Origin: Pseudanabaena sp. PCC 7367
Lineage (GTDB): Bacteria > Cyanobacteriota > Cyanobacteriia > Pseudanabaenales > Pseudanabaenaceae
Direction of reading: 5' to 3'
NCBI RefSeq assembly: GCF_000317065.1
Contig: NC_019701.1
Coordinates: 1,889,001-1,953,000, forward strand
DNA length: 64,000 nt
The notes below the pieces were generated by a model that was given only the letters and a program-made list of their open reading frames with translations, ran no database searches and was not told the origin of the DNA. Below are positions 28,811 through 57,687 of this stretch, one piece after another. Numbering within the stretch: position 1 is the stretch's first letter; each line of letters starts with the position of its first letter. A program made the translations under genes and the position numbers.

Positions 28811-28840
28811 GTCCCCGCCATCGGGGACTTCTTTTTTTTT
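28811..28840 (+). terminator. strong intrinsic terminator
   Basis: GTCCCC and GGGGAC form a perfect 6-bp stem around GCCATC, followed directly by TTCTTTTTTTTT. It is the strongest terminator in the window. Confidence 0.85.
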
Positions 28841-53094: not shown

Positions 53095-53604
53095 ATGACT
53101 AACCCAACCACAAATACCAAAGTATACATCAATGGCATTAGGGCATTTGGCTATATTGGCCTGCTCCCGGAAGAAAAAATTTTAGGGCAATGGTTTGAAG
53201 TCGATCTTACTTGTTGGTTTGATTTTGAGGCGGCGGCGGGAAATGACAATATCAATGACACCTTGGATTATCGATCGGTGATTGCGATCGTAGAGAAATT
53301 AATCCAGACGACCAAATATGATTTGATTGAACGCTTAGCTGGGGCGATCGCCGATCGTGTTCTCGTAGATACTCGAATCCAACAGGTGCGGGTACTGGTG
53401 AAGAAAAACCCACCAATCCCCAATTTCTTGGGATCGGTGGCGGTGGAACTGGAACGCTCCCAGCCTGCGATCGCCTTAGAGCAAGATCCAGAGCAGCTAG
53501 CTCAATCGCAGAACGGTGCCGCAATCAAGGAGCAAGAAACCGTTAATGGCAAATCTACTAAAACTGCTACCAAAAGTAAGAAAGGCTCAAAAAAAAAGTC
53601 GTAA
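53095..53604 (+). CDS. folB: dihydroneopterin aldolase (FolB) with long lysine-rich tail
   Basis: Folate pathway enzyme that splits 7,8-dihydroneopterin. ATG at 53095 ([20 protein letters not shown]) is the best start; a TTG 15 codons earlier is in frame. Conserved Glu is in [17 protein letters not shown] and the catalytic Lys is in [20 protein letters not shown]. The FolB domain ends near residue 120. The last 48 residues are a Gln/Lys-rich linker ending SKKGSKKKS. The final codons TCA AAA AAA AAG TCG TAA (A9 followed by G) form a -1 slippery sequence that leads into the rnhA frame. Confidence 0.9.
53589..53598 (+). promoter_or_regulatory. slippery A9-G site, probable -1 frameshift or transcript slippage signal
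   Basis: Nine A followed by G at 53589-53598 lie in the folB frame as TCA AAA AAA AAG, containing the heptamer A AAA AAG. That is the classic -1 slippery heptamer used in E. coli dnaX. A -1 slip moves reading to GTC at 53598-53600, the rnhA frame. Adding one A by transcript slippage has the same effect. A weak SD-like AAAGG lies just upstream and short pairings lie downstream. Confidence 0.6.
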
Positions 53605-54140
53605 CTGAGGCAGATCAGCTCACTTTAGAAAATTCGGAGCCAGTAAATACCCCCGATCAACCAGCTAGCTCAGCACCAGAGATCGCCAGCATCTATACCG
53701 ATGGCGCATGCTCTAAGAATCCTGGACCAGGTGGTTGGGGTGTGGTAATTAATTTTAGCGACAACAGCGTTAAGGAACTGGGTGGTGGTCAAGCAACAAC
53801 CACTAATAACCAGATGGAATTGCAAGCGGCGATCGCGGCTCTGGAATTTGCCAATGATTACCAGAACGGGAATCGCAAACCGATCGACCTCTACACCGAT
53901 AGTAAATATGTAATTGACGGGATCACCAGTTGGATCAAAGGCTGGAAGCGCAATGGTTGGCAAACTAAATCCAAACAGCCAATTAAAAACCAGGAGTTAT
54001 GGCAAACCCTCGATCGCCTCAACTCAGCATTAGTAAACTGGCGTTGGGTAAAAGGGCATTCTGGCGACACCAACAACGATCGCTGCGATCTGATCGCCAG
54101 GTCGTTTGCCACGGGTCAAGAACCAAACTTGAGACAATAA
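53598..54140 (+). CDS. rnhA: ribonuclease HI, apparently made as a frameshift extension of FolB
   Basis: Cleaves the RNA strand of RNA-DNA hybrids. All catalytic residues are present: Asp in [18 protein letters not shown], Glu in [12 protein letters not shown], Asp in [12 protein letters not shown], and His and Asp in [14 protein letters not shown]. The first canonical start codon in frame is GTG 53742, which is after the catalytic Asp. Upstream the frame is open only back to a stop at 53577-53579, with no ATG, GTG or TTG. From the slip point at 53598 the frame reads a 30-residue Asp/Glu/Pro/Ser linker ([20 protein letters not shown]) before the domain. The natural product is therefore likely a 348-residue FolB-RNase HI fusion. 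Confidence 0.85.
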
Positions 54141-55920: not shown

Positions 55921-56045
55921 ATTAGTGATATTTGAGCCCCCAAAACCTGAAATAAAAACATATACGAACCATAAATGCTCGAGAATTGAATGCTATAGTT
56001 GACGTTAATAGAGTCCACATTGTTATAAACTTGCTTCTCAGGCAT

Positions 56046-56930
56046 ATGTCAGAACCCAAAAAATTGTTAGCTAAATCTGTTAATACAGTCATTAATGATG
56101 ATTGCAGAAATGTCTTAGCAAAGTTACCTCAAGACTCTATTGACCTAGTCTTTACATCTCCCCCTTATGCTGATCGGCGCGGCAAGACTTATGGAGGTGT
56201 AAAAGCCAATGAATATGTAGAATGGTTCCTGCCTATATCTGAGCAAATTATGCAGGTGTTAAAGCCCTCTGGCTCATTTGTATTGAATATTAAAGAACCA
56301 GTTATTAACGGGGAGAGACATACTTTCGTACTTGAATTAATTATAGAGATGCGAAAGCAGGGTTGGCTCTGGACTGAGGAATATTGCTGGCATAAGAAGA
56401 ATAGTTATCCTGGGAAATGGCCAAATCGTTTCCGCGATTCATGGGAGCGATGTTTACACTTTACGATCGAAAAGAAATTTGCTATGTATCAAGAAAAAGT
56501 GATGGTTCCGATGGGAGATTGGAAGAATAAGCGTTTAGGTAAACTTAGTAAAACTGATAAAAATAGAGATAATTCAAAAGTTGGTAGTGGATTTGGCAAG
56601 AATGTTTCTAATTGGGTTGGGCGAGAAATGGCTTATCCAACAAATGTGTTACACCTAGCAACAGAATGCAGTAATCGAGGGCATAGTGCTGCTTTCCCGG
56701 TTGAATTGCCAAAGTGGTTTATTAAACTTTTCACTCAATCAGGAGATATTGTACTAGACCCATTTCTTGGCTCTGGTACAACTGCAGTTGCTTGTCAGGA
56801 ACTTAGTCGCAATTTTATTGGAATTGAGATAAATTCTGAATATTGCAATATTGCTTTAGAACGTTTAGGAAGTGGTATGCAACTAGCTTTATTTGAGAAA
56901 CAATCTAGTTATGTCGTTAATCAATCCTGA
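56046..56930 (+). CDS. type II DNA methyltransferase, probably N4-cytosine class (beta)
   Basis: The catalytic motif IV, DLVFTSPPYADRRGK, comes before the S-adenosylmethionine motif I, LDPFLGSGTTAVA, so the order is that of class beta methylases. SPPY is typical of N4-cytosine enzymes. Start at ATG 56046 (MSEPKKLLAKSVNTV). The frame is open to a TTG at 55986 but that part is not conserved-looking. The gene is AT-richer than its neighbours and lacks GCGATCGC sites, which fits recent arrival. It overlaps the restriction gene by 20 bases. Confidence 0.9.
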   Translation: MSEPKKLLAKSVNTVINDDCRNVLAKLPQDSIDLVFTSPPYADRRGKTYGGVKANEYVEWFLPISEQIMQVLKPSGSFVLNIKEPVINGERHTFVLELIIEMRKQGWLWTEEYCWHKKNSYPGKWPNRFRDSWERCLHFTIEKKFAMYQEKVMVPMGDWKNKRLGKLSKTDKNRDNSKVGSGFGKNVSNWVGREMAYPTNVLHLATECSNRGHSAAFPVELPKWFIKLFTQSGDIVLDPFLGSGTTAVACQELSRNFIGIEINSEYCNIALERLGSGMQLALFEKQSSYVVNQS

Positions 56931-57687
56931 AGAGCTTGAAAAACTAATTAGAGAAAAGCTGGATTTATTTTATACCCGACGGATTCAAACGCTTGACGGA
57001 TTGGACCTATGGAAAACCCTCAAGCGGAAAAATCCATATTTGTTCAGAGCTTTTGGAGTGATTGAACCTAGTGAAATTGTCAAAGAACTTTTGCAAGCGT
57101 ATGTATCCTCATCAGACGAAGGTATCTTTGGAGGTACATTCTTTGAGCCCATTGTTCATGCTGTTAGTGGTGGAGTTGCTGCGGATATAGTAGGAATAGA
57201 CGCAATTGTAGAGACTGCTACTACTTATACTGTTATCCAAGTTAAATCTGGACCTAATTGGGGAAATGCCGATCAAAAAAGGAAATTAAAGGATAATTTC
57301 CAAGCTGCTCGTTCTAACTTTCTAACCAAGAATATAAAAAAAGAATTTAGAGCCTTACTCGGTCAGTGTTATGGACGCACCGCTAGTAATGCAAGTGATA
57401 AGCGCCCGTATATAACTCAATCTGGACAAGCATTTTGGCAAGAGCTAACCGGCGATCCTGATTTTTACCTAAAGCTAATTCGGCTTATGAAAGATTATCC
57501 TCTAAGACATCGTCCTGACTACCAAGAAGCTTTCAGTAGAGCAGTTACAAAACTTACCCACGAATTCATAGAATACTTTACAACTTCAGATTATTCTGTT
57601 GATTGGGATAAAATTGTCAGACTCAATAGCGGCAGAGAACAAATAAAGAAACCTGTTAAGAAAAAAACAAAACGTAGAAAGACTTAA
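56911..57687 (+). CDS. type II restriction endonuclease (PmeII-like)
   Basis: Start chosen at ATG 56911 (MSLINPEELEKLIREKLDLF), overlapping the methylase; a TTG at 56893 is also in frame. The likely PD-(D/E)xK core is GIDAIVETATTYTVIQVKSG, with Asp and the QxK active-site pair near residues 99-114. SSSDEGIFGGTFFEPIVHAV precedes it and QAFWQELTGDPDFYLKLIRL follows, both matching the PmeII-type family as I remember it. The tail is very basic (KKPVKKKTKRRKT). The target sequence of the pair cannot be read. AT-rich like its methylase. Confidence 0.82.
   Translation: MSLINPEELEKLIREKLDLFYTRRIQTLDGLDLWKTLKRKNPYLFRAFGVIEPSEIVKELLQAYVSSSDEGIFGGTFFEPIVHAVSGGVAADIVGIDAIVETATTYTVIQVKSGPNWGNADQKRKLKDNFQAARSNFLTKNIKKEFRALLGQCYGRTASNASDKRPYITQSGQAFWQELTGDPDFYLKLIRLMKDYPLRHRPDYQEAFSRAVTKLTHEFIEYFTTSDYSVDWDKIVRLNSGREQIKKPVKKKTKRRKT

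Follow-up and report, generated by a model that had tools for sequence, protein, structure and literature searches.

Bacterial RNA polymerase slips efficiently on runs of nine A or T (PMC5009743), and among the closest described systems is the dnaX gene of Thermus thermophilus, where the presence of two lysine tRNAs was suggested as the reason for the use of transcriptional slippage (PMC5009743). The high shiftiness of the Escherichia coli dnaX site was, in turn, attributed to the sole tRNA-Lys of that organism (PMC5009743). For IS elements, among them those of Nostoc PCC 7120, slippage at A9 has been inferred as well (PMC1088944). The folB and rnhA genes of Pseudanabaena sp. PCC 7367, located in the 64,000-nucleotide stretch of DNA analysed here (the window), resemble Thermus dnaX in their nine sense-strand A, the two lysine tRNAs of the organism, products with a common N-terminus, and the dispensability of a structural stimulator. 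In Thermus, it is the short product that arises by slippage, the long one being in frame, whereas here slippage would give the long product, extended by a separate enzyme. With Shigella mxiE and the A9 IS elements of Nostoc and Deinococcus, the locus shares overlapping open reading frames and an arrangement in which a nucleotide inserted at a homopolymer leads to a longer protein; mxiE encodes a regulator and the IS cases are transposases, whereas the partners here, a folate enzyme and a nuclease, both have housekeeping roles. Compared with stand-alone bacterial FolB and RNase HI, both domains are likewise ordinary members with catalytic residues, but they would reside on one polypeptide connected by a flexible linker, an architecture found in Pseudanabaenaceae and once independently outside this family. 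Based on comparative sequence analysis, we consider it probable that folB and rnhA constitute a single recoded gene, in which RNA-polymerase slippage at the A9 run yields the only RNase HI of the cell as a fusion protein.

The folB-rnhA locus of Pseudanabaena sp. PCC 7367

The following features of the locus were used (positions refer to the window):

53095..53604, + strand: folB (dihydroneopterin aldolase), the zero-frame product; 169 aa, C-terminal tail rich in Lys and Gln
53577..53579, + strand: TAA closing the rnhA frame upstream; blocks further 5' extension of this frame
53589..53597, + strand: A9 run, proposed slippage site; G at 53598; rare in the genome; recurs in two other species
53598..54140, + strand: portion of the trans-frame product encoded by rnhA; linker of 34 residues followed by the RNase HI domain; without a start of its own
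53602..53604, + strand: folB zero-frame stop TAA; one codon beyond the A9-G codon
53700..53702, + strand: codon for the first catalytic Asp (IYTDG) of RNase HI, placed by sequence and structure alignment

The folB gene starts with ATG at 53095 and its 3' codons read TCA AAA AAA AAG TCG TAA, while the rnhA frame, at −1 with respect to folB, stays open between 53580 and a TAA ending at 54140. The two frames overlap at the A9-G run, which consists of exactly nine A, and one inserted base joins them. Coordinates, frames, and translation were rechecked, and the −1 overlap as well as the 348-aa FolB-linker-RNase HI product predicted in the initial annotation were found to be correct; the identical protein results from a ribosomal −1 shift or from one extra transcribed A. 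The statement that rnhA has no start ahead of its first catalytic Asp was borne out by a codon scan from the stop at 53577-53579 to the Asp codon at 53700-53702, in which none of ATG, GTG, TTG, CTG, ATT, or ATA occurred in the rnhA frame. The earliest usable start is a GTG at 53742, i.e., within the RNase HI domain.

Across the 4.89 Mb genome, A9 has 38 matches on both strands (about one per ~130 kb), and the number expected by chance in the 230-nt folB-rnhA linker is about 0.0008. The length of the run in the window derives from one assembly, and the genome is the sole member of its genus in the comparison. The window contains just one further A9 run (28832-28840, − strand), which appears intergenic and lies beside a terminator-like inverted repeat.

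Catalytic roles of FolB and RNase HI residues are textbook knowledge, and both domains were checked against profile models and solved structures. The FolB domain is complete (PF02152, E-value 6e-33; TIGR00525, 94.4 bits against a cut-off of 72.15) and keeps its catalytic positions when aligned to 5f3m. The RNase HI domain scored 182.7 bits with NF001236 (cut-off 160), and alignment to 2e4l confirmed that the catalytic Asp/Glu/Asp/His/Asp set is kept in full, as had been noted from the sequence. A second RNase HI that would make the folB-linked copy dispensable was rejected as none over the cut-off was found in the genome, the other PF00075 match falling below it. The fusion frame is the genome's only RNase HI over the cut-off; RNase HII is encoded in the same genome.

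Fused and off-frame arrangements in relatives

The locus was compared across 38 genomes of Pseudanabaenaceae (Pseudanabaena and relatives), in which the arrangement of the two genes varies among genera between in-frame, adjacent, split, and off-frame. The tandem-domain homologues whose search the initial annotation had proposed were recovered in abundance: most of the 38 genomes encode the two domains as a single continuous frame of about 290-340 aa, with in-frame FolB-RNase HI fusions in three genera (g2, g4, and g5). RNase HI was present once per genome. Because most family genomes carry it, the FolB-RNase HI fusion is, judging by this recurrence, real and not a lone sequencing error. Many of the in-frame linkers contain no ATG, GTG, or TTG before the catalytic Asp, and hence RNase HI is tied to FolB in these relatives, too. 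An AlphaFold2 model of the in-frame fusion of Pseudanabaena cinerea FACHB-1277 consists of two largely confident domains connected by a low-confidence linker (residues 119-175), which is probably disordered.

Outside the family, a fusion was detected in one of about 300 genomes surveyed (G054:C18:506860-507837). This genome, which belongs to another cyanobacterial family, encodes the in-frame fusion and additionally a stand-alone RNase HI. In gene trees, its FolB and RnhA cluster with non-family sequences; horizontal transfer was therefore rejected as its source, and the fusion arose separately. No relatives were found among viral contigs.

Two metagenome-assembled genomes of another genus of the family, G006 (MAG UBA999) and G012 (MAG SM2_2_1), likewise have rnhA offset by −1 at an A9 run and lacking a start; the conservation of overlap and run, which the initial annotation had proposed to check, was thus found in two further species. 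At their seam, the folB frame reads GCT AAA AAA AAA TCC and the rnhA frame TAA AAA AAA ATC CAA. The distance from A9 to the catalytic Asp is 34 residues in the window and 6 residues in G006 and G012. The folB stop of these two genomes is located downstream of the catalytic Asp codon, which excludes termination-reinitiation there; with no start being available in the window either, re-initiation after folB was rejected as a route to RNase HI. One other off-frame arrangement (G007) consists of adjacent genes with a stop between them, a normal ATG for rnhA, and no A run.

Between G006 and G012, the rnhA region 3' of A9 differs at 70 of 146 third codon positions, and the run length is nine in both. 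Substitution rates (dN 0.128, dS 1.50, the latter near saturation) result in a dN/dS of about 0.085, which points to selection for protein; by this measure, strong purifying selection acts on the start-less rnhA frame of the two genomes. A9 is found in each of the three off-frame loci that lack a start, as opposed to none of 31 in-frame linkers (30 from the family plus that of G054; longest A run eight), a distribution reached by random labels in 1 of 5984 cases.

Candidate mechanisms for joining the two frames

In the proposed mechanism, the bulk of the transcripts would be translated to FolB (169 aa). RNA polymerase would slip on A9, and mRNAs that have gained one A (or lost two) would bring rnhA into frame and give rise to the 348-aa FolB-linker-RNase HI protein, the only RNase HI of the cell. 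Ribosomal −1 slippage on A AAA AAA or A AAA AAG may contribute as well. We infer from the comparative data that slippage takes place, that its main form is transcriptional, and that the ratio of free FolB to FolB-RNase HI is set by it. Transcriptional slippage fits these data better than ribosomal slippage, which was ranked second, because of the two lysine tRNAs, the lack of a stimulatory RNA structure, and a transposase in the same genome whose frames are joined at A9 in the +1 direction. This IS630-like transposase is present in six identical copies (L082, L083, L084, L099, L100, and L105), each with an HTH ORF followed by a DDE_3 ORF. A +1 join is not possible by a −1 ribosomal slip, whereas transcriptional slippage can serve both directions; the copies may hence be taken as an independent indication of slippage at A9 runs in this organism.

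Programmed −1 ribosomal frameshifting as in E. coli dnaX would produce the same 348-aa protein from unedited mRNA. Ribosomes, too, can slip on A AAA AAG and A AAA AAA, both of which lie in the correct zero-frame phase, A AAA AAA is in phase in G006 and G012 as well, and A-rich heptamers are frequent in genes with predicted programmed frameshifts (PMC3711429). The dnaX heptamer emphasised in the initial annotation is indeed in phase in the window, as in E. coli, but is probably not the working element. E. coli relies on a sole tRNA-Lys (PMC5009743), whereas tRNA-Lys(UUU) and a separate tRNA-Lys(CUU), which should hold AAG, are both present in the window genome, G006, and G012. Moreover, the AAG is missing in G006 and G012, where TCC follows the A9 run without a G. 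Regions 3' of A9 in the window, G006, and G012 folded no better than shuffled sequences, so a stimulatory structure or stem-loop like that of E. coli dnaX was found in none of the three species. On inspection by eye for an upstream Shine-Dalgarno-like stimulator, the window showed only a weak AAAGG a short distance upstream, and G006 and G012 showed none. Furthermore, a heptamer alone would not need nine A. Ribosomal frameshifting as the principal mechanism is thus considered rather unlikely.

Alternatively, rnhA would be translated separately from a rare non-AUG start, e.g., an ATC shortly before the first beta strand, and ATC codons do occur shortly 5' of the catalytic Asp in all three species. 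Their positions differ among the species, however, and in G000 one of them encodes an Ile that is conserved in the first strand. Initiation at ATC is extremely weak, and its use would leave both the A9 run and the fusion in relatives unexplained, making this a quite improbable route.

The main rival named in the initial annotation, a homopolymer error in the assembly (true A10), was considered together with a real indel that broke an in-frame fusion and left a pseudogene. Homopolymers are error-prone and the relatives have in-frame fusions, but the same offset and run recur in two other species with independent assemblies, the start-less frame of G006 and G012 appears to be under purifying selection, and the catalytic residues are all intact with no second RNase HI in the genome. 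An error or disrupting indel is consequently very unlikely. Phase variation, in which A9 length would change in the DNA of the population and toggle the fusion on and off, could draw on the slipperiness of poly-A runs for DNA polymerase (PMC3711429) but is hardly credible, as the run is exactly nine in three species despite diverged flanks and RNase HI is neither a surface nor a contingency gene.

Evolutionary order and significance

In the gyrB tree, the window genome branches as the sister lineage of all other family members (SH-aLRT 97), G006 and G012 form a separate branch (99), and in-frame and split lineages are placed elsewhere. Given these branch positions, the recoded state is either ancestral or arose twice, and the A9-to-Asp distances of 34 versus 6 residues lean towards two origins or a large change of the linker. 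As a side observation, gyrB open frames of 860-1089 aa were found in G008, G010, G014, and G023, compared to about 650 aa elsewhere, and probably contain inteins.

FolB forms oligomeric rings. We tentatively suggest as one possible order of events that A9 recoding was ancestral in the family, with RNase HI dosed as a minority arm on the FolB oligomer, and that several lineages later fixed the in-frame fusion. Recoding by slippage would yield a mixture of free FolB and FolB-RNase HI, whereas the in-frame relatives make the fusion only, and the ratio of the two forms may matter to the cell. More simply, the fusion may have become the sole expression route of rnhA and be merely tolerated. The family offers a natural series (separate, adjacent, recoded, and in-frame) for a direct test of how recoded fusions evolve.

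Neither the FolB-RNase HI fusion nor its recoding was found to be described in the open-access literature, consistent with the initial annotation, and the main text of the GeneTack frame-transition survey (PMC3711429) contains neither folB nor rnhA. While slippage sites of this kind are known, the fusion itself and the use of slippage for a housekeeping fusion enzyme appear to be new. In at least three cyanobacterial species, the sole RNase HI appears to be made only upon slippage at A9. If true, homopolymer slippage would be the only route of expression for a housekeeping gene on the chromosome, a case beyond dnaX, prfB, and IS elements, and the fusion would constitute a previously undescribed link of folate synthesis with the removal of RNA-DNA hybrids. 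Standard annotation would label such an rnhA as start-less or as a pseudogene, and the sole RNase HI of the organism would be overlooked.

Elsewhere in the window, a Type II restriction-modification pair was identified at 55986-57687 (+ strand), comprising an N6_N4 methyltransferase and an EcoO109I-like endonuclease (PF14511, E-value 6e-73), directly 3' of an mgtE gene.
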